The notes below the pieces were generated by a model. That model made no database searches. It was given only the letters and a program-made list of their open reading frames with translations, and had not been told where the DNA came from. Below are positions 3,008-32,977 of a stretch of 64,000 bases of DNA, piece by piece. The stretch comes from Candidatus Saccharimonadota bacterium (lineage in GTDB: Bacteria; Patescibacteriota; Saccharimonadia; Saccharimonadales; Saccharimonadaceae): NCBI GenBank assembly GCA_017519305.1, contig JAFWSN010000002.1:124001-188000 (forward strand). The letters are read 5' to 3'. The first letter of the stretch is position 1. Every line of letters starts with the position of its first letter. A program made the position numbers and the translations under genes.

Positions 3008-4171
3008 ATGAGTAAAAAGAAGGTTATCGCATTATTAATTTTAATTGCCGCTATTGTCGGGATGATTCTGACTGGCGGATTTTTTGAATTGATTGATTTT
3101 CTCGTTGTCCGCCCAATCGTCAACATTCTCTTTATGACTTATAACTTGGTTGGTGACTTCGGTCTTGCAATTATTATCTTTACTATCCTTGTAAAGCTAG
3201 CAATGTTCCCACTTACCAAAAAACAATTGCGTCAAACACGCCTCATGAAGAAGCTTCAGCCAGAGCTTGCTCAAATTCGTAAGAATTGCAACGGTAACAA
3301 GCAGCTCGAATCGCTCCAAACCATGGATCTTTACAAGCGCTACAATGTTAAACCAGCCGGCTCTCTTTTAACGCTTCTTATTCAGCTTCCAATCTTTATC
3401 GCTATCTTTGGCGCAATTCGTGTAATTGCTACCCCTACTCCAAAAGATAATATTACTAACCGCGCTTACGAGATTGTTGCCTACGACGGTTCAATCATCA
3501 AAGATCTCAAAGATAAGCAAATTACTTACCTAGATAATCTTGAGAAACAAATCGAAGAAGCTAAAAAAGCCGAAGAAAAACCAGCTGAAGAAACTCCAGC
3601 CGAGGGTGAAGAAGAGCAGGAAGAAACCACTGTTGAGTCTGCTGTTTACGATTTCCATCCACAACTCTTTGGCAAGATTAATCTCGACGTAAAGGCTAGT
3701 GATGTACTTAGCAACTATAGTAATAGCGCCCTGTTCATCTTCCTTTGTGCTGTAGCTGCCGCAGTAGTACAATATATTATCACTCGTCAACAATCCCCAT
3801 CGGGCAAATCCGAGAAAAATAAGGGTTTCCGTGCCATTCTTAAAGAAGCTAGAGAGGGCAAAGAGGTTGATCAGAGCGAAATTAACGCTTATTCCACCAA
3901 ACAGATGGCTGCACTTATGCCTCTCATGATGTTCTTCATCATGTTTAACCTTCATGGTGCACTTGCTTTCTATTACTTCCTCAGTAACCTACTCACAGTT
4001 GTTCAACAAAAGGTCATTTTGGCTAAGACTCGCGACGAGCTCGACGATATGACCGACAAAACCATTCTTAAAGAACTTAACAAAATTCAGGAAGCTGAAA
4101 TTGTAAACAAAAAAACAGGAACAAAAATTACACGTATCTCCGCTAAAGATATTAAAAAGAAAAGGAGATAA
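3008..4171 (+). CDS. yidC: membrane protein insertase YidC/Oxa1
   Basis: The 387-residue polytopic protein inserts and folds inner-membrane proteins. Seen: an N-terminal hydrophobic segment (residues ~5-25), the conserved YidC first core helix with a basic residue in the groove (Lys in ILVKLAMFPL, where many have Arg), and a long cytoplasmic loop rich in K/E. A hydrophobic segment, a Glu/Pro-rich insert (around residues 180-215) and C-terminal core helices (QMAALMPLMMFFIMF) follow. The ATG at 3008 (MSKKKVIALL) is preferred to an in-frame ATG at 2972 inside rnpA, because a TATAAT sits just upstream and the membrane segment starts properly. A lysine-rich tail follows the last helix. Neighbour jag starts 5 bp downstream. 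Confidence 0.93.
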   Translation: MSKKKVIALLILIAAIVGMILTGGFFELIDFLVVRPIVNILFMTYNLVGDFGLAIIIFTILVKLAMFPLTKKQLRQTRLMKKLQPELAQIRKNCNGNKQLESLQTMDLYKRYNVKPAGSLLTLLIQLPIFIAIFGAIRVIATPTPKDNITNRAYEIVAYDGSIIKDLKDKQITYLDNLEKQIEEAKKAEEKPAEETPAEGEEEQEETTVESAVYDFHPQLFGKINLDVKASDVLSNYSNSALFIFLCAVAAAVVQYIITRQQSPSGKSEKNKGFRAILKEAREGKEVDQSEINAYSTKQMAALMPLMMFFIMFNLHGALAFYYFLSNLLTVVQQKVILAKTRDELDDMTDKTILKELNKIQEAEIVNKKTGTKITRISAKDIKKKRR

Positions 4172-12414: not shown

Positions 12415-14565
12415 ATGGGAAAGACGAATGATATATTGCTTACAGCCGTTATCACGGCTCATGACGAAGGCTTGCTCGCGCACAAGACAATGCTAAGTGT
12501 TTTTGAGGGGCTCCAAAAAGTTAAGGATGCCGGGTATAAGTACGAGGTTATTGTCCACATAGATAATGGCGACGAGACAACTAAAAAATACTTCCAACGC
12601 TACAAAGACAATGGTGAAGTACGAATATTTGAAAATAAATTCGGCGATACCGGTCCGTCAAGGAATTTTTCCGTTAAACAAGCAAATGGCAAGTATGTAG
12701 CCTTTTTGGATGGCGACGATTTGATGTCTAGTAACTGGTTCATAAAAGGAATAGAAATTCTAGAACAAGCAACGGCGGAGACCATTGTTCACCCAGAGGC
12801 AGTTTTGACTTTTGGTTTGGACATAAAAAACAACGTATTAAGCATTCAAAAACCATCCTACGACAGGGAAAAGGACACCCTGATTTTACTAGGCGAAAAT
12901 CGCTGGTGCTCTGTAGCTATGGCCAAAAAAGAAACATTCGAAAAATTCCCATATAAACGAGTGGGCGCCGGTTATGGGCATGAAGATTATATATTCCATG
13001 TTGAGGCTTCAAACGCTGGCATCAACCACGCAATAGCAAAAGAAACTGTCTTATTCTATCGCCGTTCGGATAAGTCTCGTCTGTCTTCTGGGGTTTCTTC
13101 GTGTGTGACAATTCCATACATGGACTTATTTGACTTTGAAGCGGTAAAAAAATTAACTAAGCCAGTTCCAAAAACGACGGACGAACGCGTGAAAAGCAGG
13201 GGCTATAGGCTTTATAAAAAGATTCGCAACAACAACTTCCTCAACTTCTTCATTACCCCAGTCGCAAAAAAGACAATTAAAGTCCTTGATAAAAAACAAA
13301 AGAAACAAACCGTGCCAAAATTTGTCAAAGAAGAATGGATTAATATTAACCATATTGAGACACAATTATACCCGCATCCATGGATCCTCAGAAGGGTAGT
13401 GTTCTATGACGCAGACAAACAGACCGCTGTAGGTAGAGCATATTTTGAAATCGCAAAACAGGTTCACCATAAACCAAACTATGTTTTTATTGTCCCATGG
13501 CTAATACGCGGAGGAGCCGACAAAGTATTATTGAACTATATTCAGGCTCTCAAAGAAATTTATCCAGACTGGAAATTTACGGTTATTGCTACTGTCCCAA
13601 CACATAACGATTGGGTTGATCAATTGCCAGAGTATGTTGATTTTATTGATTTTGGTACGGTATCGGAAAGCTTGCCGCCAGTATTACAAGATATGTTATT
13701 CTCGCGCATTATTACACAACTACAGTGTAATAAATTACATATTATTAATTCGGAATTCGGCTATGACTGGGCGAGAAAACACAAAGACCTAGTTGGTGCG
13801 TACTATACTTTGAATGTTTCGCTATTTTGCGATGAATATATTCCGGGTAGCAATGCGAGAGGAGTATTCTCATATGACGATCCGTACCTGTTGGAGATTC
13901 TCCCTGTAGTAAATAAAGTTTTAGTGGACAATAAAACGATTGTCAAGAAAACTTGCGACCACAATGGTTTCAATGATGACAAATTCGAAATTAATTATCA
14001 GCCAATAGACCAGAAAGAATTTTCATCACCAAAGGAGCATAAACAGAAAAAACAGCTAAAAGTACTTTGGGCCAGTAGGATTGTTCCAACAAAATTGCCA
14101 GACCTAGTAGCGAAAATCGGAACACAGATTAATGGAAAAGATATTGCAATAGATGCTTACGGGACATTTGGGCAAGACATGGATACCAGCGTATTCAATG
14201 GTATATCGGCAATAAAATACAAAGGCCCATATGATGGCTTCCAGACTATCCCAACAGAAAAATATGACCTATTTCTCTATACTGCAATGAGTGATGGCGT
14301 GCCGAATGTTATTCTTGAAGCAACTGCGGCTGGGTTGCCAATAATTGCATCCAATGATGGCGGAGTTGGTGAATTTGTCAAAGACAAAAAGACCGGTCTT
14401 CTTGTTAAAGATTATCTAAAGCCGGATGAATATATCGAAAAAATGAATTATGCGCTAAACCACCAAGAAGAGCTACAACAATATGTTGCGGCTGCGCAAA
14501 AGCTTCTCCTCGAGCGTCACAGCTGGGAAAAATTTGTCCAAACGGTCAAAAAAGATATTGGTTAG
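12415..14565 (+). CDS. bifunctional glycosyltransferase, GT2 plus GT4 domains
   Basis: The 716-residue protein has an N-terminal GT2 domain (residues ~8-250) with the acceptor/metal motif FLDGDDLMSS. A C-terminal GT4-type GT-B domain (~355-710) has GVPNVILEATAAGLPIIAS and the preceding sugar-binding region. Two transfer steps could thus be made by one chain in surface glycan assembly. The donor and acceptor are not predictable. Start ATG 12415 is supported by an extended -10 ending 7 nt upstream. The stop overlaps the convergent DMT gene by 4 bp. Codon use is A-rich like its divergent partner. Confidence 0.85.
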   Translation: MGKTNDILLTAVITAHDEGLLAHKTMLSVFEGLQKVKDAGYKYEVIVHIDNGDETTKKYFQRYKDNGEVRIFENKFGDTGPSRNFSVKQANGKYVAFLDGDDLMSSNWFIKGIEILEQATAETIVHPEAVLTFGLDIKNNVLSIQKPSYDREKDTLILLGENRWCSVAMAKKETFEKFPYKRVGAGYGHEDYIFHVEASNAGINHAIAKETVLFYRRSDKSRLSSGVSSCVTIPYMDLFDFEAVKKLTKPVPKTTDERVKSRGYRLYKKIRNNNFLNFFITPVAKKTIKVLDKKQKKQTVPKFVKEEWININHIETQLYPHPWILRRVVFYDADKQTAVGRAYFEIAKQVHHKPNYVFIVPWLIRGGADKVLLNYIQALKEIYPDWKFTVIATVPTHNDWVDQLPEYVDFIDFGTVSESLPPVLQDMLFSRIITQLQCNKLHIINSEFGYDWARKHKDLVGAYYTLNVSLFCDEYIPGSNARGVFSYDDPYLLEILPVVNKVLVDNKTIVKKTCDHNGFNDDKFEINYQPIDQKEFSSPKEHKQKKQLKVLWASRIVPTKLPDLVAKIGTQINGKDIAIDAYGTFGQDMDTSVFNGISAIKYKGPYDGFQTIPTEKYDLFLYTAMSDGVPNVILEATAAGLPIIASNDGGVGEFVKDKKTGLLVKDYLKPDEYIEKMNYALNHQEELQQYVAAAQKLLLERHSWEKFVQTVKKDIG

Positions 14566-14915
14566 AAATGAATTGAATAGACAATGATACCGGCTACGAT
14601 TAACAGTATGCCGATGATTTGTCTTGCCGATAGCTTTTCTTTAAAGAACACATAGCTAAGGAACGCCACTAGACCATACTCCAAAGTACCGAGAATTGCA
14701 CCTAGTGTAATTGGAATTACCTTATATGCATAGATCGAAAGCAGCGTCGCAATTACAAAGATAGAATATGCTCCAATGACGCGAATATTGAGATATTGTT
14801 TAATGAAGCTACTATTTTTTGAATCGCTGGCAGACTTTTTCAGGAGCACTTGAGAAAAAGCTGAAATGACAATGCCGACTAAATAAATACCGCTAAAGAG
14901 AATTATTTCACTCAT
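14562..14915 (-). CDS. half-size DMT/EamA-type membrane protein, subunit 2
   Basis: The 117-residue protein has four hydrophobic helices and the small-multidrug-resistance/EamA pattern (GAILGTLEYGLVAFLSYVFFKEKLS, then IIGILLIVAGIIVYS). Paired short proteins of this type, such as ArnE/ArnF, flip lipid-linked sugars. Full-length DMT transporters have ten helices. It is last in the eight-gene operon and overlaps its partner by 8 bp. A role as one half of a flippase for the sugar made upstream is an inference. Confidence 0.75.
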   Translation of the reverse strand: MSEIILFSGIYLVGIVISAFSQVLLKKSASDSKNSSFIKQYLNIRVIGAYSIFVIATLLSIYAYKVIPITLGAILGTLEYGLVAFLSYVFFKEKLSARQIIGILLIVAGIIVYSIHF

Positions 14916-15291
14916 TTTCTTTCTCCTCCTCTTTTTTCTTTGGGTTGGAGACGACTAAGAACACGCCACAGAACACAATCAAAATCCCGATTATCGTAGA
15001 AGCCGAAACGTTTTCTCCAAACAATGTTACTCCCCAAATAAGGCTCCAGACAAGCGTAGCAGACTTATTTACGAAGGCGTTTGTGAGAGGAATATTCTTT
15101 AGCACTTGCTGCCAGATGATTGCGTATATACCAAGAGCGAAAATGACGCCGCCGTACAATGCAATGAATTCGAATGACATGAACTCGCGGCCAGCAGCAA
15201 ACTTAGAACAGACTGTGCTGACCGACAAAATCAACACGGCAACATGTAGCAGGGCGTAAGTCTTTAATAATTTTTTATTGTCTTTCGCCAT
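14908..15291 (-). CDS. half-size DMT/EamA-type membrane protein, subunit 1
   Basis: The 127-residue protein has four hydrophobic helices with LVWSLIWGVTLFGENVSAST and a last helix IIGILIVFCGVFLVVS, the same layout as the following gene, and a charged tail KKKEEEKENE. It overlaps the aminotransferase gene by 17 bp and the partner by 8 bp. The two are presumably a heterodimeric transporter or flippase. Confidence 0.75.
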   Translation of the reverse strand: MAKDNKKLLKTYALLHVAVLILSVSTVCSKFAAGREFMSFEFIALYGGVIFALGIYAIIWQQVLKNIPLTNAFVNKSATLVWSLIWGVTLFGENVSASTIIGILIVFCGVFLVVSNPKKKEEEKENE

Positions 15292-16420
15292 CTACCGCTC
15301 CCAAAAATTCTTTTATGGCATTGCAAACTGTTTCTACGTCTGAATCAGACATGTTGCAGTGTAATGGCAAACGCAAAAGGCGATCCGCGTACTCTTCGGT
15401 TATTGGCAAATCACCGGTCTTATAACCGTATTTTTGGCCAAGTGGGGAATTATGTAGTGGCATATAGTGAAAAGTAGCCACAATTTCGCGTTCTTTCAAA
15501 AACTTCAACAAACTATTGCGCGTCTCAGCATCTTTTAAGAAGATGAAGAAGATATGGGCATTATGCTCGGCGTATTCTGGAACGTGCGGCACGCGTAATA
15601 TGCCAAGATCTTCAAGTGGCTTCAAAGCATCAAAGTATTGTTGCCAAATATTCAAACGACGTCCTCGGTTCTGATTGAAGTTTTCAAGCTGCCCATATAG
15701 TATTGCGGCAAGTACATCTGACGGTAGGATTGAAGAGCCAACCATATGCCAAGAATATTTATCAACTTGGCCATGAATAAATTGTTTGCGGTTGGTACCT
15801 TTTTCTCGTATGATTTCTGCTTCTTCCATCATTTGGTCATCTTTGATATAGACTGCCCCACCTTCACCCATTACGAAATTCTTAGTCTCATGGAAACTAA
15901 AACACGCAACATCGGCCTTAAGACCACAGATTTGACCCTTATATTTGCTACCAACTGCCTGCGCAGCATCCTCCACAACCAAGAGATTGTGCCTTTTTGC
16001 AATTTCAACAATCTTGTCCATATCACAGGAAACGCCAGCATAGTCAACCGGTACAATTACTTTGGTTTTTGGCGTAATTAACGACGCAATTTTATCGACA
16101 TCAATATTCATTGTATCTGGATCAATTTCTGCAAAAATTGGCCTAGCTCCGCGGAGCATAAAAGCATTCGCAGTAGAAGAGAAAGTGAAGGACGGAGTAA
16201 TAAATTCATCGCCTGGTTGAATCTTCGTCAACAAAGCGGCGAGCTCCAATGCGGAACTGCCAGAGGTGGTTAATAGAAAATTTTTATAACCGTAATTGTT
16301 AAACCACTCAGTACAGAGTTTGGTATATTTTTTATCGCCGGACAATAATTTATTATCCAAAGCGTCAGCTACGTATTGTTTTTCTTTTTCCGTAATAAAC
16401 GGTTCAGTAAAATTTATCAT
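15275..16420 (-). CDS. DegT/DnrJ family aminotransferase, WecE/RffA-like (dTDP-4-amino-4,6-dideoxygalactose transaminase)
   Basis: The 381-residue protein begins INFTEPFITEKEKQYV as WecE/RffA does. It has the PLP-binding pattern SGSSALELAALL, EDAAQAVGSKY (Asp about 151) and the catalytic Lys about 180 in SFHETKN. WecE converts dTDP-4-keto-6-deoxyglucose, the product of RmlB, to dTDP-4-amino-4,6-dideoxygalactose using glutamate. Since RmlA and RmlB are encoded upstream in the same operon and no rmlC or rmlD is visible, this reaction fits. Start overlaps the SDR gene by 4 bp. Confidence 0.87.
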   Translation of the reverse strand: MINFTEPFITEKEKQYVADALDNKLLSGDKKYTKLCTEWFNNYGYKNFLLTTSGSSALELAALLTKIQPGDEFITPSFTFSSTANAFMLRGARPIFAEIDPDTMNIDVDKIASLITPKTKVIVPVDYAGVSCDMDKIVEIAKRHNLLVVEDAAQAVGSKYKGQICGLKADVACFSFHETKNFVMGEGGAVYIKDDQMMEEAEIIREKGTNRKQFIHGQVDKYSWHMVGSSILPSDVLAAILYGQLENFNQNRGRRLNIWQQYFDALKPLEDLGILRVPHVPEYAEHNAHIFFIFLKDAETRNSLLKFLKEREIVATFHYMPLHNSPLGQKYGYKTGDLPITEEYADRLLRLPLHCNMSDSDVETVCNAIKEFLGAVDGERQ

Positions 16421-17409
16421 AGGGCTTTCTTTTCGAAGCGGTTTAGCTCCATCTCCTTTTTATAATCTTTAAGATATGAAATGTAATCGTATTGAGGGGT
16501 ATATCCTAATTCGTCTTTGATGTTTTGGATATCCATTACGAAATCATCACAGGTTGGCATGTCTGGTTTATAGACAATTTCGGACGGATTGTCTTTTGGC
16601 GAGAATACTTCAATGAAGCCCTTGATTTGGTCTTCCATAGAAGTCTTAACGCCAGTACCAGCATTATAAATGCCACTGTTGCGGTCGACGAACAAGGCTT
16701 TGAAAATCATTCCGCAAAGATCTTTGACGTAAATGATATCTTTACCGGCTTTCGGGTCACCCCAACACTCGATTGGTAAACCTTCCATTGCACGTTTAAT
16801 CATATAGCGATAAGAAATTACTTTTTTCTCGCCGTTAACGTAATAGTATTCGTCTGGAGTATAGAGATAGATGTTTGGCAAACGGAAAACGAAGTCTTTA
16901 ATGCCATACTCTGCATTATAATGTCTCATCAAATCTACCGCTGCGTTCTTGGTTATACAATAAACTGCATGGTCACCAGTTAAAATTGGCTTCCTTGGCC
17001 AATCTGGCTTCAATGGCTTTTTGTCTTTCAGATAACCATTCAAATCTGCCCAAGTTTGAGTATAGATAATTCGATCTGCTTTAACCTCGCGGCAATATTC
17101 AAGGATATTCAAAGTACCGTTAATATTCGTTTCGATATAGTATTCAGCGCCGAGCTTAGTATAGGCCGGAAGAGCGCCAGCAAAATCTACTACTGCGTAA
17201 ACATTTTCTTTTGGTAAATTTTTAAAATCATCTTTTTTCGTGACGTCTACTTGGATGTACGAAACGTCAAAATCTTTGTAATTATATTCTGCCTTTCTAC
17301 CGGTGGCGACAATCTCATATTTCTCTAAATCGAGATTATTTAGTAAATGGTCGATAAAATACGCACCAAGATTACCAGTTGCCCCGAATACTATAATTTT
17401 TTGCTTCAT
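16417..17409 (-). CDS. NAD(P)-dependent epimerase/dehydratase (extended SDR)
   Basis: The 330-residue protein has the Rossmann motif VFGATGNLGAYF at residues ~6-18 and a YxxxK active-site pair in AVYCITKNAAVDLM. A typical sugar-nucleotide binding region follows. It could epimerise, reduce or dehydrate a nucleotide sugar; the substrate is not evident. Start and stop overlap the neighbours by 4 bp each. Its position between a GtrB-like transferase and a sugar aminotransferase points to the same sugar pathway. Confidence 0.82.
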   Translation of the reverse strand: MKQKIIVFGATGNLGAYFIDHLLNNLDLEKYEIVATGRKAEYNYKDFDVSYIQVDVTKKDDFKNLPKENVYAVVDFAGALPAYTKLGAEYYIETNINGTLNILEYCREVKADRIIYTQTWADLNGYLKDKKPLKPDWPRKPILTGDHAVYCITKNAAVDLMRHYNAEYGIKDFVFRLPNIYLYTPDEYYYVNGEKKVISYRYMIKRAMEGLPIECWGDPKAGKDIIYVKDLCGMIFKALFVDRNSGIYNAGTGVKTSMEDQIKGFIEVFSPKDNPSEIVYKPDMPTCDDFVMDIQNIKDELGYTPQYDYISYLKDYKKEMELNRFEKKAL

Positions 17410-18344
17410 TTTTTCTCCTTATCGTTCAATTTGGTTCGCACTACATAGAGCGGGCGCTCTTTGACCTGGACGAAAATATTACCAACGTATAAGCCGACGA
17501 TACCAATAACTGATATATTGATACCGCCGATTAGGCAAATCGTAGTAATAATACTGACCCAGCCAGAAAGCTGTGGCTCAAAGAAGATATGGACAATGAT
17601 TAGGGCAATAATCGCTAGGAGGGACAGGAAGCTTAGCATGATGCCGAATTTCACAATCAGGCGCAAGAACTTATCCGATTGTGACAACAAAATTTCAGAT
17701 GCGAGTTTGAGACGTTTCTTGAAGCTATAGGAGCTTTTGCCAGATTTACGTGGAGCATGTTCTACTGCGACGGCCGTTTGTTTAAAGCCTAACCACTGCA
17801 GATACATTACGAAAGCACGATGTTCCTCGCGCATCTTACAATAAGCTTCAATCACATTTTTCCTAGCCATGCAGAAATTGCAGAGTTCCGGATCGTATTT
17901 CTGACCAACGGCAAAACTATAGAATTTGTAGAACAATTTAGCGATAAAGATTTTGCGTTTTTTATCTTTGCGTGAAGCACGCTTCGCAAATACAACGTCG
18001 TAGCCATCTTCTATTTTTTCTAACAACTTAGGAATTTCTTCTGGTTTGTCCTGTAAATCACAGTCCATCACAACTACATAATCGCCGGTTGCATTATCAA
18101 GACCAGCAAGTATGGCTTTCATTTGACCAAAATTTCTAGACAATTCAATGCCGACGATCTTCTTGTTGGCGGCACAAAGCTCTTCGATAACCTCCCATGA
18201 GTTCTGTGGGCAGGAATCATTTACTAGAATGATCTCATATTCTTTAGAGATAGAAGTCAGGGTTTTTTCGAGCCGTTCGCAAAGCTCTTTAAGTGCGGCT
18301 CGGCAACCATAAACTGGTATAACTACGGATATTTTTTTACTCAT
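17406..18344 (-). CDS. GT2 polyprenyl-phosphate glycosyltransferase, GtrB/DPM1-like
   Basis: The 312-residue protein has a GT2 catalytic domain (SVVIPVYG at the start, DYVVVMDCDLQDKPEEIPKL, then FVMYLQWLGF) and two C-terminal membrane helices. This is the architecture of GtrB/ArnC/YkoT enzymes, which transfer a sugar to undecaprenyl phosphate. It probably makes the lipid-linked sugar that the small DMT pair could flip. It overlaps the downstream SDR by 4 bp and the upstream fusion gene by 8 bp. Confidence 0.87.
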   Translation of the reverse strand: MSKKISVVIPVYGCRAALKELCERLEKTLTSISKEYEIILVNDSCPQNSWEVIEELCAANKKIVGIELSRNFGQMKAILAGLDNATGDYVVVMDCDLQDKPEEIPKLLEKIEDGYDVVFAKRASRKDKKRKIFIAKLFYKFYSFAVGQKYDPELCNFCMARKNVIEAYCKMREEHRAFVMYLQWLGFKQTAVAVEHAPRKSGKSSYSFKKRLKLASEILLSQSDKFLRLIVKFGIMLSFLSLLAIIALIIVHIFFEPQLSGWVSIITTICLIGGINISVIGIVGLYVGNIFVQVKERPLYVVRTKLNDKEKK

Positions 18345-20490
18345 TTAGGAGGGCCTCCTTTATCTTATTCGCGATATTTTTTGAATCTGTACGATAAATA
18401 GCGAAGCCCATGCGTGTACCACTGTCGGTCACAGCATGGTCAAACTTGTCGATTTTGCTCATGAAGTATAAGTAATCCGGATTAGCCGCATTGAGCTCCT
18501 GAATTTTCTTAAGATCATCTGGTGACAAAACAAATTTTACGATCGCAAAATTCGTTTCTGGCTCCGGAAGCTCCAGCTGATTGCCGGCGGCTACATCGAT
18601 AACCATTTTGACAAAGTCGTTTCCGGTAGAAAGTTTGACTAAATCTGAGCCAATACAGTCGCCACCCATACGAGCTCCGATTTCGATAATGCCAAAGTTG
18701 CCATCTTTGTCTACCTTAAATTCGGTGTGACTAGCGCTGTTTTTAACTCCCAAAGCATCAAGTGCTTTAAAAATCTCTTCTTTGATACTAGCTTGTAATT
18801 CTTCTGGGATGTCCGACGGTTCGGCGTGGCCAGTTTCTATAAAATGCGGGGAACCAGTGGTGTATTTTTTTGTAAAGGCAAGGAAATGATGCTTGCCGTT
18901 TTGGGTAATACATTCACAGCTATATTCGTCGCCATCGATGAACTCTTCAATGATTGCACAGTGTTCAAACGATTCTTTGGCGGCAACTTCTACAGCAGCT
19001 TCAATTCCGTCCATCCCCATCAATTTGGTGATACCACGAGAACCAGAACGGTCTGTTGGTTTCACGATTACTGGAAAATTAAAATCTTTTAGAATATCGG
19101 CAAAGTTGGTTTCGTCCGCCTGCACCTTTACGAATTTCGGAGCCTTAACGCCATTTTTTACGAAAGCTTCTCGCATTGCATACTTGTTGGTGCACTGCTC
19201 GGAAATTGCCACTGGATTACCTGGAAGACCAAGCTCCTCGGCTACATAATTTACGGTCAATGTAGCTAGATCGGATGCAATAGTACAAATTGCTACTGGG
19301 CTAATCTCGCGACATTTTTCAAGAATTGCTTCCTTTTCGACGATGCTAATAGGGTAGAAATAATCAGCTGTGCGCTCGCCGATGCTTCCATCTTGCCATG
19401 CGAAAACATGAGTCTCGTATCCTAGAGCATTGGCTTTCATGATGAGTTTGTTCTGAAAATCATTGGCCCCCACAACTGCGATTTTTGGTGGTTTATAATC
19501 TGAGCGATATGCGCCGGACTCGATATTCTTGATCCAATCAACGTGCGATTGATACCAGGCCACCGTTTCTTTAATACCTGATTCAAAATCGTGAGTAGGT
19601 TGCCAACCAAGCTCTTGTTCAACCTTAGAAGAGTCGGTAGCGTAACGCAAATCATGTCCTGGGCGATCGGCGACAAACTCAATCAAAGATTCTGGTTTGC
19701 CAAGCTCTTTCAATACGGTTTTTACAACTTCTAGGTTGCTACGTTCGGAGTGGCCACCAAGATTATATACTTCGCCATCGCGGCCATGGCGCACAATCAT
19801 ATCAACACCAACGTTGTGATCGTAGACATGAATCCAATCACGAACATTCTCACCCTTGCCGTAAACTGGAATTTTTTCGTTGTTTAAGGCGCGGCTAATG
19901 ATTACCGGGATTAATTTTTCAGGGAACTGATAAGGACCATAGTTGTTTGAACAGCGAGAAATAGTTACGGGTAATCCAAAAGTCCTAGCATAAGCGAGCA
20001 CCTCAAGGTCTGCGCTTGCTTTTGATGCCGAGTATGGACTAGATGCATGAATTGGTGTTTGTTCAGTAAATAATAAATCTGGGCGATCGAGTGGCAAATC
20101 GCCGTAAACCTCATCCGTAGAAACCTGGTGGAAACGAACAATGCCATACTTGCGGGCCGCATTCATCAAATTCATCGTGCCGAGTACGTTGGTCTTTGCG
20201 AATACATTTGGATCTTTGATGGAATTATCTACGTGTGATTCGGCTGCGAAGTTAATCACGTAATCAAAACGTTCAACATCAAAAAGGCCATCAATAAAAT
20301 CATCATTTCTAATATCACCTTTTACGAAACGAAAATTTGGCTTATCTTCCAAATCTTTAATATTGTTGTAATTGCCGGCATACGTCAGGGCATCAAGACA
20401 AACAAACATGTCTTCTGGATATTTCTCTGTAACGTAATGCATGTAGTTGCTGCCGATGAAACCGGCACCACCAGTAACTAAAAATTTCAT
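18337..20490 (-). CDS. RmlB (dTDP-glucose 4,6-dehydratase) fused to an ATP-grasp enzyme
   Basis: Residues 1-~330 are a complete RmlB: GGAGFIG at 7-13, STDEVYG near 124-130 and YSASK at 153-157, the full catalytic set for converting dTDP-glucose to dTDP-4-keto-6-deoxyglucose. Residues ~335-717 form an ATP-grasp domain of the biotin-carboxylase/carbamoyl-phosphate-synthase type: a pre-ATP-grasp fold ([18 protein letters not shown]), an ATP-binding lid ([16 protein letters not shown]), and GDEYSCECI and [16 protein letters not shown] near the metal site. ATP-grasp ligases join a carboxylate to an amine, so the second half might acylate the amino sugar made by the WecE-like enzyme (inference). 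There is no frameshift or internal start evidence for two genes. Confidence 0.88.
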
Positions 20491-24304: not shown

Positions 24305-25081
24305 TTATTTCCAAAGCGCAGTATAAGCATCTGCAACTTCGTTCGGATCACCGTCCAATTTGACTTTTCCAGCATCAATCAAGATTGCTCTATCACAGAA
24401 TTTACGAACGTTTTCCATCGTGTGAGTTACCAAGACCACAGTTTGGTTACCGTGTAGTGATTTAAAGTAGTCGTTACATTTTTGCTGGAAAGCAGCATCT
24501 CCTACTGCCAAAACTTCATCGAGAAGCAAGATGTCGCCTTTTGCGCGAATTGCAATCGAGAATGCCAAACGAACCTGCATACCAGATGAGTAGTTCTTGA
24601 GTTTCTGATTCTGGAATTTTTCAAGTTCGGCGAACTTCCAGATTTCGTCATACATTTCATCCATTTCTTCGTTGGAGAAACCAAGCAAAGCACCGTTCAA
24701 ATAAACATTTTCACGTCCGGTCAATTCTGGGTTAAAGCCTACACCGAGTTCGATAAAGGGAACTAACGTGCCATCGATTACGATGTTGCCTTTTTCTGGG
24801 TAATAGATACCAGCTAAAGTCTTAAGCAATGTAGATTTACCAGAGCCGTTGCGGCCTACAATACCAACGAACTCGCCTTTTTTAATTTCTAAGTTAATGC
24901 CTTCGAGCACTCTTTGATCTCTGTAGCCGCGAATACCACGAAGTCTATTAAAGATGGCCTGTTTCAAACCACCAGCATGCTCTGTTGGTAGGCGGAAACT
25001 CTTATGCAAATCCTGCACGGAAATCGCGACGTCGCCATCCGTGAATTGCTCAAGCCTAGTGCCAAGAGAACGTTTTTTCAT
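24305..25081 (-). CDS. polysaccharide/teichoic-acid export ABC transporter ATP-binding protein (TagH/Wzt-like)
   Basis: The 258-residue ATPase has Walker A GRNGSGKST, the signature LKNYSSGMQVRLAFSIAI and Walker B ILLLDEVLAVGD, followed by THTMENVRKFCDRA, all as in TagH/Wzt. It powers export of lipid-linked polymer through the permease encoded immediately upstream (start and stop adjacent at 25081). The C-terminal substrate-recognition domain found in some Wzt proteins is absent. Confidence 0.93.
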   Translation of the reverse strand: MKKRSLGTRLEQFTDGDVAISVQDLHKSFRLPTEHAGGLKQAIFNRLRGIRGYRDQRVLEGINLEIKKGEFVGIVGRNGSGKSTLLKTLAGIYYPEKGNIVIDGTLVPFIELGVGFNPELTGRENVYLNGALLGFSNEEMDEMYDEIWKFAELEKFQNQKLKNYSSGMQVRLAFSIAIRAKGDILLLDEVLAVGDAAFQQKCNDYFKSLHGNQTVVLVTHTMENVRKFCDRAILIDAGKVKLDGDPNEVADAYTALWK

Positions 25082-25893
25082 TAGATTTCCTCCGCAAAGA
25101 ATTTAGACTTCTTTCTGAAATATAATGCAGCCAGGATGAGCAAAACGACAATCAAAACGATCGGCAAAATTTGTAGCCAGAAGCAGCCAATTGTTTCCCA
25201 AGTCGTGGCTGACACTGGGGTGATTAAGTTATGTCGAATATCCTGAATTGCTTGTGCGATTGGGTTGAGCAGAATAACTTTAGCAGCCAAAGGACTAGCG
25301 TTCATCACCATTGAAATTGGGTAGATGATTGGCACAGCATAGAAGAGCGCCTGAATACAAACATCCCAAATCGAAGTAATGTCACGATACTTAACGTTGA
25401 TGGCTCCGAGCAAGAATGCAATCCCGAGCGACAACAAATAAAGCTCAAGTAGAGACAATGGAACGAGCAACCAGGTAAGACTTGGCGTCACGCCACTAAT
25501 TAAAGCGAAAATAATCACAACGAAGAGGTTAATTAGCATATTAATCACGGCCGTCAAAGTAGAGGAAACCACTACGATATATTTCGGGAAGCTGATTTTG
25601 CGAATCAAATCGCCGCGCGAAACCATAGCTTGAATGCCCTGCGAAGTACATTCTGTGAAAAAGCTCCACATCGTAGTACCGCAGAGTAGATATACTGGAT
25701 AATATGGGATTTCATCTCCGAACCTAAGAATCTTAGAAAATACGACATACAAAATCGCAAACATCATTAATGGCCTAAGTAGTGCCCACATATAGCCTAG
25801 CACCGAACCTTGGTACCTTAATTTAAAATCAGTTTTGGTCAATTCTTTTAGAAGAATGCGGTTCTTCTTGTTCAGAACACGAGGAATACTCAT
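25081..25893 (-). CDS. polysaccharide/teichoic-acid export ABC transporter permease (TagG/Wzm-like)
   Basis: The 270-residue protein is an ABC-2 permease with six hydrophobic segments. It shows TDFKLRYQGSVLGYMWALLRPLMMF at the N terminus, the coupling region, and FLLGAINVKYRDI, common to TagG/Wzm/RfbA. Together with the next gene it forms the exporter. Minus-strand TG-C-TAAAAT (25906-25901) ends 7 nt before the ATG, so the pair has its own leaderless promoter although it lies downstream of the YidC-transferase fusion. Confidence 0.93.
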   Translation of the reverse strand: MSIPRVLNKKNRILLKELTKTDFKLRYQGSVLGYMWALLRPLMMFAILYVVFSKILRFGDEIPYYPVYLLCGTTMWSFFTECTSQGIQAMVSRGDLIRKISFPKYIVVVSSTLTAVINMLINLFVVIIFALISGVTPSLTWLLVPLSLLELYLLSLGIAFLLGAINVKYRDITSIWDVCIQALFYAVPIIYPISMVMNASPLAAKVILLNPIAQAIQDIRHNLITPVSATTWETIGCFWLQILPIVLIVVLLILAALYFRKKSKFFAEEI

Positions 25894-25917: not shown

Positions 25918-26127
25918 TTATTTTTTCTTCTCTACGACGATATCGTCTGACTCGACTTCTTTGTTCTTGTTTTCGTCAACGCCAAGTTTTTTGTTAACTT
26001 TCTTTTTGGCTTTACGGAAATACAAGCCAACGAAAGCACCAACAGCAATAATAATACCCGCCCCAGCTTGGATTGCATAGGTCATGACCGATGGGTCGAT
26101 ATAGCCAAATGTTGTGAAAATGTTCAT
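25918..26127 (-). CDS. small single-helix membrane protein
   Basis: The 69-residue protein has one hydrophobic helix (AIQAGAGIIIAVGAFVGLYF, residues ~18-37) followed by a charged tail ending VVEKKK. The ATG overlaps the stop of the YidC-transferase fusion by 4 bp, so translational coupling is likely. I do not know a family. Its tail and position suggest a small accessory subunit of the export or transferase machinery, but nothing shows it directly. Confidence 0.6.
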   Translation of the reverse strand: MNIFTTFGYIDPSVMTYAIQAGAGIIIAVGAFVGLYFRKAKKKVNKKLGVDENKNKEVESDDIVVEKKK

Positions 26128-28022
26128 TTTTTCTTCCTTTCTTTAATTTTATTTTGAACACACTCAATAATATACTCAGCACCGATTCCTGCCGACTTAC
26201 CAAGATTATAAACCGAATCTTTCTTGATTGCAGCAATTTGCTTCTGATACTTAGCTGGGTTCTTTAGCATTTTTTCTACTACGTCACCCATTTTATTTAC
26301 ATCTTTTACCTTTACGACCTCGCCGATAATATCGCGAATCCAAATGTTGATTGGGTCAACATCAATCTTTTTGTAATCCGGGTTCATAATTTTCATCGGG
26401 GTGTCGATCGAGATAACTGGTTTTTCGGTGGTGAAAGCATACTCGAGACCGATACTAGACCAGTCCGTAATCAAAAGGTCAGCATTGAATACAGAGTCGG
26501 TAGAAGAGAAATCTGTTTGAATCGTGATATTGGTCCCGGCATACTGTTCTTTCATTTTTTCGAAAGCATCACGCATATGACGGACATGCTGTGGATGTGG
26601 GCGTACGATTACGTCATAAGACTTACCGGACAAAGCTTTTAGGACCTTATCGAGACAAAGGTCAATAATATTATCTTTTTGCCATGAAGGGGCAATCATG
26701 ATGGTTTTTTTCTTGGACTCTGGCTTCTTTGACTTTTTGTAATCACGAATCATGTCGTCAAGCAAAGTATAGCCCCAGTCGATGATTTTGCGATCTTTCA
26801 AGCCGTAAACCTCGTTGGTCTTTTCGTATTCTTCGCGTTGGTATTTACCGGTAGCAAACACTGAGTCGTAGTGATCAGTCGAGCTTTTGCGCATCGTCAT
26901 GTTGAGACTATCGATGCAGTGCGGAACGTAAATGTATTCAATATCTTTTCTGATATAGCTACGTTTAATATGGAAGTTATTAATGTCTGGCATCGTCATT
27001 ACTACGACATCGGCATCCATTTTCATCATTAAAGTAATGAGTTTTTTCTCTTCAATATAATATGGTTTAATCTTACTCTCAGTTTTAGCCAGTTCAAAAA
27101 TCTGGTCATTGTAATCACTTGTAATGTAATGAATAGTCAAATTGGTATTTTTGAGAATATACTCAATCATGCCTTTGTAATATTTATAGAAACCACTACT
27201 TTCTGAATAAAACACCAAGTGTTTGTTGACGATAGAGAAGAAGCGCTTATAATCAGCTTTTTCTTTACGGATTTGCTCTACTGTGCGTTTGCGATTTTTA
27301 TTAATCTCTTGAAGTTCCTTCAGTTCTTTGCGGGACTCGTCGAGAGCTTTATAGTCGACATGTTTTTTCGGGTTGATAAAAATATTGAGTAGCCATTGCT
27401 GAACAACAGCAAACAAGTTGCTAGCGGTCCAATAAAGAGCCACACCGGCCGTTACGAATGTACCAAGATAAAGCGACAAGCCAACAGACAGAATCAACAT
27501 ACCATATTTGTTAGCCTTAGACTGTTCGGCCTGCAAAACATTCATAATATTTTGGCCAACACAAAGTACCAAGGCGGATAAACCAGCGATTACCGGGATC
27601 CAGATGGCCATTCCACCATTTTCGGAGGCAATCCAAGACAAATCAAAGCCGAAAAAATTCATATCGATATTTTCAACACCAATATAGAGACTTGGGTTCT
27701 TTACGATTTCTACCACACCAAGCAACAATGCAATTTGTGCAATTAGCGGGACCAGGGAAGCAAGCGGATTATATTTATATTTTTTGTAAATTTTTGATTC
27801 TTCTTCAGCAATCGTATCTTTATCGCCAAAGTATTTTGCCTTCAAACGATTGATTTCTGGCTGCATTTTAACCATCTTAATAGAATTCTTTTGTACCCAA
27901 ATTGAAATTGGCAAAAGAATAATTTTACTCACTAAAGTAAATAAGATAATTGCCCAGCCGTAGTTGCCAACGACGCTGTAACAACCCTTCATAATCCAGC
28001 CGAGAAAATCAACAAAAATCAT
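26124..28022 (-). CDS. fusion of a YidC/Oxa1-like membrane domain and a CDP-glycerol glycerophosphotransferase-like domain
   Basis: Residues 1-~220 match the YidC core: a first helix with a basic groove residue (FTLVSKIILLPISI), the cytoplasmic hairpin with QPEINRLKAKYFGDK, and the last helices (ALYWTASNLFAVVQQ). Residues ~260-632 match TagF/TagB-type transferases, with RPHPQHVRHM and TDWSSIGLEYAF. Those enzymes move glycerol-phosphate (or ribitol-phosphate) from CDP-glycerol to teichoic-acid chains. Here the membrane domain could anchor the transferase or help pass a product. A charged linker (~221-260) joins them. Start ATG 28022 overlaps the sulfatase-like gene by 4 bp. Confidence 0.88.
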   Translation of the reverse strand: MIFVDFLGWIMKGCYSVVGNYGWAIILFTLVSKIILLPISIWVQKNSIKMVKMQPEINRLKAKYFGDKDTIAEEESKIYKKYKYNPLASLVPLIAQIALLLGVVEIVKNPSLYIGVENIDMNFFGFDLSWIASENGGMAIWIPVIAGLSALVLCVGQNIMNVLQAEQSKANKYGMLILSVGLSLYLGTFVTAGVALYWTASNLFAVVQQWLLNIFINPKKHVDYKALDESRKELKELQEINKNRKRTVEQIRKEKADYKRFFSIVNKHLVFYSESSGFYKYYKGMIEYILKNTNLTIHYITSDYNDQIFELAKTESKIKPYYIEEKKLITLMMKMDADVVVMTMPDINNFHIKRSYIRKDIEYIYVPHCIDSLNMTMRKSSTDHYDSVFATGKYQREEYEKTNEVYGLKDRKIIDWGYTLLDDMIRDYKKSKKPESKKKTIMIAPSWQKDNIIDLCLDKVLKALSGKSYDVIVRPHPQHVRHMRDAFEKMKEQYAGTNITIQTDFSSTDSVFNADLLITDWSSIGLEYAFTTEKPVISIDTPMKIMNPDYKKIDVDPINIWIRDIIGEVVKVKDVNKMGDVVEKMLKNPAKYQKQIAAIKKDSVYNLGKSAGIGAEYIIECVQNKIKERKKK

Positions 28023-29650
28023 TTTAGATCAAAACTCCTTCCTGTAGGGTTAAATGTTGTCATATCCCAAGCCTTTCCGCTTTGTTCATATTCGATCATA
28101 TGTTCTTCGTGCTGGAAGCTATTGTGTAAATAGCGTCTAATTCGTCCATCGGTTGGCAAATCGGCAAAAACTTCGGTGCTGGATTTTCCATCCAACAGTT
28201 CGATGAAAGTGCCGCAAAGGTCTGCATACGACACTTGCTTGTTTGATGTCAGCATCTCTTCATGATGTTCGTTAGGCCCCTTAATATACAATATCGGGTT
28301 TTGTCGTCCAGAACCATCATAGTTATATCCATGGTCAGCCATCAATACGATAGTTGAATTATCATAGGACCCGTTATTCTTAAGATATTCAATGTAAGTT
28401 TTAATTACTTTCATTGTGGCTTCGAGTTTCTCTGGATAAGTCCCATCGCCATCTGGCAAGGGATTTAAATCGGCATCAAGATCGAATGGCACATGACCAC
28501 CTTCGAGGTGGATGAATTGGAACATCTTGTCATCTACGATGTCAGCCTCACGCCCCACATGGTTATCACGGAATTGCGCGTCCCACCATGTAAAAGTATC
28601 ATTGCCGGCTTTATTTTGAGCTGCCTCAAAGTGCATAGAATCAACTCTAGAAAAACGCTTGAGTGGGAAAGGTAGGGATTTAAACATGATATATTTTACC
28701 TCTTGCGCCGCTAGTTGGTATAAATCAACTTCGCCATCGATTGAAACAAGGTTATCAAAATCGAAGGCCTTAGAACTTCGCCATAGTAGCTCCATCTCAT
28801 AAAGATTTTTTTGGTAACCCCTTTCCGACAAGGCCTTGAAGAAAGCGGAATTATCGAACGCTTCAGTAGAGTATTCGGAAAATAATTTCTGGTTTTCATT
28901 CCATTCGCTAGAAAATATGAACGGAATCGAATCTCTTGTGAACGCATAGCCAGATACGGTGTCAGGGAAGTAAGAAAAGTCTTTTAACGCACTTGTATAT
29001 TCCGAGTTGCTAGCTACGACTTTATTAAAGGCGACGGAATCAACGGCATCGACTAATAAAACTACATAGTTTCTATCAGACGACAATGAATAGAGATTTT
29101 TGTTTGTCGAGAGTGCCAAAATATTCTTTTCCTCAAACATGGAGGTCGTTAAGCAGGTGGAAATCAACGAAATTGCTAGCATCGCAAAAATTACAAGACT
29201 ACAACAGGAGAAATATTTTGAAACTTTCTCAGAACCAAGTTTTTTGTGCGCAACGATAATGGCGGCGGCGATTATCAAACATACAACTACCGAAACGATA
29301 TTGGCGGTCAAATCGCTCCAGTCAAAAGTTGTTCCATCGAGTGGCGGTAAAAAACCGGCCAAAAAATTACTATGAATATATGCACAAATGAAACAGAATC
29401 CCACAAAGAAAAGAACGAAATTGTAGATACCGGGTCTTTTAAGTTTTTTTGATATCACATAGACAATAGAGAATAATGAGCTAAGCGCCAAACAGCTAAT
29501 CACGAAAAACAGAGTGGTTGGACCAATTAACGTATAAATATCAAACCAAAAATCGTTTACGTTGTTGGCGTACATCGTGATTGGCTCAAAGATAAAAAAC
29601 ATAAAACTAATCACAAAAGATAATATTAGTGCAGACCTCAGCTTTTTCAT
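28019..29650 (-). CDS. membrane-bound sulfatase/alkaline-phosphatase-fold protein, possible phospho-group transferase
   Basis: The 543-residue protein has about five N-terminal hydrophobic helices (to residue ~190). An extracellular alkaline-phosphatase-superfamily domain follows: YVVLLVDAVDSVAF near its start, HLEGGHVPFDLD, and MADHGYNYDG with the late metal-binding D-H pair. LtaS and phosphoethanolamine transferases share this layout. The usual catalytic Thr/Ser appears to be in the SGYAFTRDSIP stretch. The ATG at 29650 is preferred over one at 29692 because TACAAT ends 8 nt before it and the hydrophobic start fits. The role in glycopolymer modification is inferred from the neighbouring transferase fusion. 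Confidence 0.78.
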   Translation of the reverse strand: MKKLRSALILSFVISFMFFIFEPITMYANNVNDFWFDIYTLIGPTTLFFVISCLALSSLFSIVYVISKKLKRPGIYNFVLFFVGFCFICAYIHSNFLAGFLPPLDGTTFDWSDLTANIVSVVVCLIIAAAIIVAHKKLGSEKVSKYFSCCSLVIFAMLAISLISTCLTTSMFEEKNILALSTNKNLYSLSSDRNYVVLLVDAVDSVAFNKVVASNSEYTSALKDFSYFPDTVSGYAFTRDSIPFIFSSEWNENQKLFSEYSTEAFDNSAFFKALSERGYQKNLYEMELLWRSSKAFDFDNLVSIDGEVDLYQLAAQEVKYIMFKSLPFPLKRFSRVDSMHFEAAQNKAGNDTFTWWDAQFRDNHVGREADIVDDKMFQFIHLEGGHVPFDLDADLNPLPDGDGTYPEKLEATMKVIKTYIEYLKNNGSYDNSTIVLMADHGYNYDGSGRQNPILYIKGPNEHHEEMLTSNKQVSYADLCGTFIELLDGKSSTEVFADLPTDGRIRRYLHNSFQHEEHMIEYEQSGKAWDMTTFNPTGRSFDLK

Positions 29651-29658
29651 ATAAAACG

Positions 29659-29664
29659 ATTGTA
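29659..29664 (-). promoter_or_regulatory. promoter of the sulfatase-fold gene, leaderless type
   Basis: Minus-strand TACAAT ends 8 nt before the ATG at 29650; no Shine-Dalgarno is present. It argues for the shorter start. Confidence 0.5.
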
Positions 29665-29709
29665 TCACAACTTTGGCCCTTGACCGACCCAAAGGTTATC
29701 TAAAAATGA

Positions 29710-32469: not shown

Positions 32470-32475
32470 ATTATA
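32470..32475 (-). promoter_or_regulatory. promoter of the GT2 gene at 31639-32463, leaderless type
   Basis: Minus-strand TATAAT overlaps the end of the GtrA-like gene and ends 6 nt before the ATG at 32463. Confidence 0.6.
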
Positions 32476-32977
32476 CATCAGTAGATTTTTTCTGGTCTCT
32501 GTCTCCAAAAACCAATCGATCATAAAATAAATAATTCAAAACCATAGTTACTGCGGCGGTAAGCACAAAGACCCCAGTACTTTCTACGAATGCATAATCG
32601 AACGGCAAATGTATTGCCGAGGCAATTGAAAAAGCAAATTCATAAAGAAAAGTTGCAAAACCAAACGACCAAGTGAGGAGTGGGCTAATCAAAAACGATG
32701 TGATACCATTCCAGACAAAAAACATTGCGATACCGTGTTTAGAGACCGGGCGCTCTTTCCAAGTAATTTTCGAATGTAGTATAAATGCCAAAATTGTCGT
32801 AGTCGTGCAGGATATTATTGAGTCTACCCACAAAAGGGAGTTATCTTTAAAAACTAGTCGTGCCAACGTTGTATAAAGCGTAAAATTGAATAACGCCAGA
32901 ATCGTACCAATCACTGCAAACCTCCCGACCCTTGCGGTGGTTTTTGGCTGGCTATTTTTATCGGTTTCTTTTTCCAT
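32471..32977 (-). CDS. GtrA-family membrane protein
   Basis: The 168-residue protein has four hydrophobic helices with RFAVIGTILALFNFTLY at the start and VLNYLFYDRLVF at the end, as in GtrA proteins. Those are proposed to flip polyprenyl-phosphate-linked sugars made by GtrB. A GtrB-like enzyme is encoded at 17406-18344. Compared with typical GtrA (~120-130 residues) it has an inserted stretch between helices. Minus-strand TATAAT (32990-32985) ends 7 nt before the ATG. Confidence 0.82.
   Translation of the reverse strand: MEKETDKNSQPKTTARVGRFAVIGTILALFNFTLYTTLARLVFKDNSLLWVDSIISCTTTTILAFILHSKITWKERPVSKHGIAMFFVWNGITSFLISPLLTWSFGFATFLYEFAFSIASAIHLPFDYAFVESTGVFVLTAAVTMVLNYLFYDRLVFGDRDQKKSTDV

Follow-up and report, generated by a model that had tools for sequence, protein, structure and literature searches.

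Insertases of the YidC/Oxa1/Alb3 family, such as Bacillus halodurans YidC2 and Escherichia coli YidC, have a core of five transmembrane (TM) helices with a cytoplasmic helical loop, and a positive residue in their groove is accompanied by an aromatic partner. This pair is documented as R366/Y517 in E. coli and R73/W234 in Streptococcus mutans (PMC8920935). In liposomes, E. coli YidC was reported to scramble lipids, but a physiological relevance of this activity could not be demonstrated in that study (PMC10491306). The CDP-alditol phosphotransferases TagF and TarL are GT-B enzymes (Pfam PF04464) with the conserved His of an HG-type motif and the motifs RPHP and D-x-S. A third group of enzymes, LtaS, EptA, YejM, and the streptococcal GacH and SccH, have an alkaline-phosphatase fold on the outside, following an N-terminal TM bundle; SccH moves glycerol phosphate from phosphatidylglycerol (PG) to the wall glycan (PMC11754754). 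Here, we describe a locus in which relatives of all three groups are encoded side by side, the first two as a single polypeptide. It lies in a window of 64,000 nucleotides from a Candidatus Saccharimonadota bacterium (GenBank assembly GCA_017519305.1, contig JAFWSN010000002.1, positions 124,001–188,000; coordinates below are those of the window unless a locus is named). The fusion gene (26124..28022, minus strand) is a single open reading frame (ORF) that starts with ATG, contains no internal stops, and encodes 632 amino acids (aa), with a YidC core followed by a TagF/TarL-like transferase as defined by Pfam and homologues.

The YidC/Oxa1 core (residues 1–224; 27351..28022, minus strand) comprises five TM helices and the cytoplasmic helical loop, as judged from Pfam, conservation, and an AlphaFold model of the fusion (mean pLDDT 88.6, pTM 0.73, rated good). 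The 60KD_IMP profile (PF02096) matches residues 21–213 above its curated cut-off (E = 2e-33) over profile positions 1–162 of 163, and TIGR03592 (yidC_oxa1_cterm) scores 110.9 bits against a cut-off of 84.3. Because such genes exceed this NCBI cut-off, they are probably annotated plainly as "membrane protein insertase YidC," and their role is hidden. Residues 1–224 of the model matched B. halodurans YidC (3wo7) with a Z score of 18.8 and an rmsd of 2.9 Å for 199 residues. The groove lysine K33 (27924–27926, minus strand) is Lys in 76 of 77 aligned homologues and Arg in the other one, and two further groove residues, Y197 and W198, are invariant in a conservation alignment of 50 sequences. W198 is aligned to Y517 of E. 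coli YidC and W234 of S. mutans YidC2, and K33/W198 thus resembles the charged and aromatic pair of the known insertases. The hydrophilic groove, whose possible loss had been raised in a first-pass annotation of the window, is retained together with the YidC fold. Unlike the known insertases, the fusion has no signal peptide, carries a 370-residue transferase in place of the C-terminal tail, and is located in envelope-glycan loci, with a separate ordinary YidC in the genome.

A helical linker seen in the model (residues 225–263; 27234..27350, minus strand) leads to the cytosolic GT-B half (residues 264–632; 26127..27233, minus strand). Glyphos_transf (PF04464) was found at residues 265–538 (E = 4.4e-12; 46.1 bits, cut-off 22.1), and residues ~264–627 matched TagF bound to CDP-glycerol (Z score 22.4) and TarL bound to CDP-ribitol (Z score 21.4). 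H368, R474-P475-H476-P477, and D520-W521-S522 are invariant in 50 sequences and are equated with the catalytic residues of TagF by motif only. Judging from the fold and these motifs, the transferase half is expected to be catalytically active with a CDP-linked donor. By the available sequence and fold tests, both halves are ordinary members of their families. The ordinary yidC, assigned by Pfam, is located at 3008..4171 on the plus strand, with an ATG at 3008 and a longest ORF beginning at TTG 2972; in a profile search, it and the fusion were the only two PF02096 genes in the genome (786 kb, 97% complete). The first-pass annotation had read a YidC core with its groove lysine in the N-terminal part, TagF/TagB-type motifs in the C-terminal half, and a second, specialised YidC copy beside the ordinary gene, and all three readings are borne out, the transferase being of the TagF/TarL type.

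A scan of 84,980 species genomes yielded 194 relatives, from which 80 loci were kept: 14 in metagenome-assembled genomes (MAGs) of gut Saccharibacteria (one locus partial) and more than 60 in gut Bacillota. Nearly all of them are full-length fusions of about 630–715 aa. The YidC domain was present in all 50 sampled homologues, and in 44 of these, the transferase domain was also detected at E ≤ 0.001. In L042, L075, L090, and other Bacillota, the fusions measure about 690 aa and have an insertion of ~55 residues after residue 110, in the extracellular loop between TM2 and TM3 of YidC; this insertion is absent from the Saccharibacteria and most Lachnospiraceae fusions.

In the window, the fusion belongs to a tight five-gene unit on the minus strand. 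Upstream, overlapping it by 4 bases, is the gene of a sulfatase-fold membrane transferase of the LtaS/EptA/YejM type (28019..29692; listed start TTG, with an ATG 14 codons downstream). Its product matched PF00884 (E = 1.6e-9), its nearest solved sequence relative is lipoteichoic acid synthase (LtaS), and its modeled fold matched YejM/PbgA and MCR-1 among others. Like LtaS, EptA, YejM, GacH, and SccH, it has an N-terminal TM bundle and, in the model, an outside alkaline-phosphatase fold that keeps the Thr nucleophile and the metal ligands; D215, T252, H395, H400, D453, and H454 are invariant in 33 sequences. Downstream, again with a 4-base overlap, is a 69-aa single-TM protein (25918..26127) with a short N-tail, one TM helix, a basic C-tail, and the motif YIDPSVMTY, called YIDPS protein below. 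It has no NCBIfam family match, and its homologue in L086 has no Pfam family match. An ABC-2 type permease (25081..25893; TagG/Wzm-like, Pfam ABC2_membrane) and an ABC ATPase (24305..25081; TagH/Wzt-like, Pfam) follow closely.

These neighbors had been recognized in the first-pass annotation and are real, but they are not equally constant. In 56 of 76 loci, a sulfatase homologue lies close to the fusion, in most cases immediately upstream on the same strand, and the YIDPS protein is visible in the fetched flanks of 68 of 78 loci, being joined to the sulfatase N-terminus in nine of these (L060, L074, and L082, not recovered by the ORF caller, are outside the neighborhood counts). The sulfatase gene occurs in all nine tested fusion-bearing Saccharibacteria other than the window's own genome, in several of them outside the six-gene neighborhood, and all 14 fusion-bearing genomes tested for the YIDPS protein encode it; neither was found in any of 32 same-genus genomes without the fusion, and this separation is complete even though, owing to relatedness, the counts are not independent draws. 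It had been suggested to count the domain pair beside tagGH-like genes: the pair itself recurs in 80 loci, but the link to ABC genes is seen mainly in Saccharibacteria, and the conserved partner is the sulfatase gene. Thus, the fusion is well supported as the core of a three-gene system with the sulfatase-fold transferase and the YIDPS protein. In the L029 genome, a 36-residue remnant of a sulfatase C-terminus with its stop lies just upstream of the fusion (G434:C3:50175-50282), and an intact sulfatase copy is located downstream on the other strand; the remnant appears to be a trace of the ancestral sulfatase–fusion gene order.

The modules are also joined covalently. In L079 (1192 aa) and L084 (1180 aa), the sulfatase is fused in frame to the YidC–transferase, and inspection of other PF02096 genes in fusion-bearing genomes gave YidC–sulfatase (L116_1 and L117_0), YIDP–sulfatase (L115_1), and YIDP–transferase (L116_2 and L118_4) fusions. 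Counting sulfatase–YidC–transferase and YidC–transferase, four modules occur in five fused orders. Every order is compatible with a single topology predicted from the families, that is, YidC N-out/C-in, sulfatase N-in/C-out, YIDP N-out/C-in, and the transferase inside. Because the modules are fused in varied orders that all fit this topology, guilt by fusion argues strongly that they form one trans-membrane machine. A divergent second family of YidC–sulfatase fusions (L116:1169-3718, L117:7-2718, and L118:3810-6379) has Q, N, or a similar residue, not K or R, at the groove position, and adjoins a YIDPG–transferase fusion in L116 and L118; it may represent a sister machine without the groove charge.

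The genes around the fusion indicate what may be transferred. A cytidylyltransferase-type gene lies within six genes of the fusion in 35 of 47 well-flanked loci, and donor-pathway genes become scarcer with distance, with a share of 18% at offsets 1–3 and 2.4% at offsets 7–12. Donor neighbors in relatives include phosphoenolpyruvate mutase, phosphonopyruvate decarboxylase, and PhnW (aminoethylphosphonate). Others are LicC joined to choline kinase and accompanied by a BCCT transporter, and a protein combining a LicC/PntC-like domain with a CobD-like decarboxylase (closest solved structures 6oux, 6pd1, and 1jyk), which probably leads from phosphoserine to CDP-ethanolamine. In L029, the closest relative of the window, a LicC-like gene is directly upstream of the fusion. 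These genes point to CDP- or CMP-activated groups of the ethanolamine, choline, or aminoethylphosphonate type rather than CDP-glycerol, and an amino-alcohol-type phospho group as their common denominator is moderately supported. The CMP-aminoethylphosphonate genes of the Pnt phosphonyl-tailoring pathway also adjoin the fusion in several Lachnospiraceae and Oscillospiraceae, but the transferases named in the description of that pathway are LicD-like, and neither YidC nor sulfatase-fold proteins are mentioned there (PntC; PMC6697681). CDP-alcohol transferases (PF01066) were checked as a clue to whether the cell's own PG or phosphatidylethanolamine could serve the outside enzyme; a member was found in all eight genomes, the match in the window's own genome being weak, and this pattern does not bear on the question either way.

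We propose a two-sided machine for envelope modification in which the fusion is the central subunit, with loading inside, installation on a surface glycan outside, and the YidC fold between them; we give this proposal about an even chance of being correct. The TagF/TarL-like half would take a phospho-substituent from a CDP- or CMP-activated donor on the inside and load a membrane-held, presumably lipid-linked, acceptor. The substituent would differ between genomes, the most likely ones being phosphoethanolamine, phosphocholine, aminoethylphosphonate, and related amino-alcohol phosphates. The YidC half and the YIDPS protein would join both sides and may let the lipid, once loaded, cross the membrane. 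The sulfatase-fold partner, with its catalytic domain outside, would then hand the substituent to the surface glycan. The sequences directly show the fusion itself, the conserved active-site and groove residues, the three-gene set, the module fusions, and the co-occurrence, whereas the donor, the lipid-linked intermediate, and the direction of transfer are inferred. The predicted division into an inside loader, a membrane step, and an outside transferase resembles that of the Gtr-type lipid-linked decoration systems (GtrA/GtrB/Gtr, and SccN/SccM in S. mutans), but the proteins are unrelated, a phospho-substituent takes the place of the sugar, and the membrane step would be a YidC fold. What sets the sulfatase-fold partner apart from LtaS, EptA, YejM, GacH, and SccH is its coupling to a cytosolic loader through the YidC fold, which in two genomes takes the form of a covalent fusion.

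A bolder form of this proposal is that the YidC groove was recruited from protein insertion to move the lipid-linked phospho-substituent from inside to outside, gated by the YIDPS peptide, which we regard as possible but doubtful. If the groove were shown to conduct the intermediate, the insertase fold would have a categorically new role, that of a physiological conduit for something other than protein. With its evolutionary link to a loader on the inside and a transferase on the outside, this YidC fold also offers a genetically tractable test case for the lipid-scrambling question. A YidC–glycerophosphotransferase architecture was not found in the literature searched, which covered few subscription journals, so that this negative carries little weight. 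The combination of the halves, the constant small partner, and the inside–outside coupling appear to be undescribed and to belong with the multi-part envelope decoration systems, and the YIDPS protein represents a new small-protein family.

Several observations weigh against the two-sided machine. Its activity is predicted, and the transfer of the substituent to the outside is drawn by analogy with EptA, LtaS, and SccH. No TagD-type (PF01467), IspD-type, or LicC-type cytidylyltransferase was found in the window's own genome, at its stated completeness, which leaves the donor unexplained. No sulfatase match was found in two fusion-bearing Bacillota genomes, L095 and L098, both draft assemblies. 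The model of the sulfatase–YidC–transferase triple protein (pTM 0.51) was used for folds only, and its domain arrangement is no evidence of relative placing. The fusion stands beside ABC export genes in many Saccharibacteria, an arrangement that agrees just as well with decoration on the inside.

This last point leads to the alternative that survives best, in which the YidC half does no more than anchor the protein in the membrane. In this view, the transferase would decorate a lipid-linked glycan inside in the fashion of LicD, the ABC transporter or another flippase would export the finished chain, and the sulfatase-fold enzyme would perform a separate modification. TagF-type enzymes act on the inner face of the membrane, and in most Saccharibacteria, TagGH-like ABC genes are near the fusion, sometimes with donor genes between them and without the sulfatase gene nearby. 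We consider this anchor role a serious candidate, though rather unlikely.

It is less probable still that the YidC half serves specifically to insert or chaperone the YIDPS protein and the multi-span sulfatase, and that its attachment to the transferase does nothing but secure co-assembly. The YIDPS protein looks like a classical substrate of YidC alone, with one acidic residue in its short N-tail, one TM helix, and a basic C-tail, and the groove residues required for insertion (PMC8920935) are retained. However, 19 of 24 fusion-bearing genomes have at least one further YidC-family gene, mostly the ordinary YidC. In the other five, all Bacillota, no second PF02096 gene was found; because these assemblies are mostly drafts, replacement of YidC by the fusion is not inferred from them. 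Moreover, the YIDPS protein is conserved in sequence and elsewhere is covalently part of the sulfatase or the transferase, which suits a permanent subunit and not a passenger.

A true TagF function, that is, CDP-glycerol-dependent synthesis of poly(glycerol phosphate) teichoic acid, is quite improbable. The top fold matches are TagF with CDP-glycerol and TarL, and near the fusion, some relatives encode a TagD-like cytidylyltransferase joined to a GFO/IDH domain, or TagD-like domains beside aminotransferases. However, the negative PF01467 search of the window's own genome contrasts with matches in 14 of 14 control genomes, a relative's TagD-like domain with an aminotransferase nearby reached 110 bits against a TagD cut-off of 165, and most donor genes are of other kinds. 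The use of CDP-glycerol and the polymer synthesis that the first-pass annotation had envisaged are therefore not supported by the donor genes, which, together with the YidC partner and the missing TagD, also set the fusion apart from TagF and TarL. Lastly, a chimeric assembly or decayed gene has virtually no probability and misassembly is ruled out, because the same full-length fusion, with a shared joint and catalytic residues retained in both halves, was recovered, if only from draft genomes, in independent assemblies of other Saccharibacteria and more than 60 Bacillota from many hosts and studies.

The fusion occurs sporadically, being present in one of 60 relatives of the window and in three of 290 further Clostridia genomes. 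Saccharibacteria are epibionts of other bacteria. In a maximum-likelihood tree of 77 rows (quick search, SH-aLRT supports only), the 14 Saccharibacteria, including the window, form one clade (support 100) that is nested in a mixed set with 13 Bacillota (support 99). Because of this nesting, the sequences are best explained by a single transfer of the fusion from gut Bacillota into Saccharibacteria, by which surface-coat machinery would have passed between them. Matches in a plasmid collection were to ordinary YidC genes only, with no fusion found. Among 380 patescibacterial genomes across the phylum, no further full fusion was found, only a separate transferase in L023. This stand-alone transferase of the same type (L023:1483-2652, G126; 33% identity, one in-frame TGA) adjoins an alcohol dehydrogenase and an apparent phosphonopyruvate decarboxylase.

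Elsewhere in the window, a single 717-aa frame (18337–20490, minus strand) combines a dTDP-glucose 4,6-dehydratase (TIGR01181) with an ATP-grasp ligase domain. Judged from the sequence alone, two small multi-TM ArnE/ArnF-like proteins (14562–15291, minus strand) are encoded beside a DegT-type aminotransferase and a GT2 enzyme (15275–18344), and together they possibly constitute another lipid-linked sugar system. By reading of the sequence only, a small GtrA-like membrane protein gene (32471–32977, minus strand) overlaps a GT2 gene.
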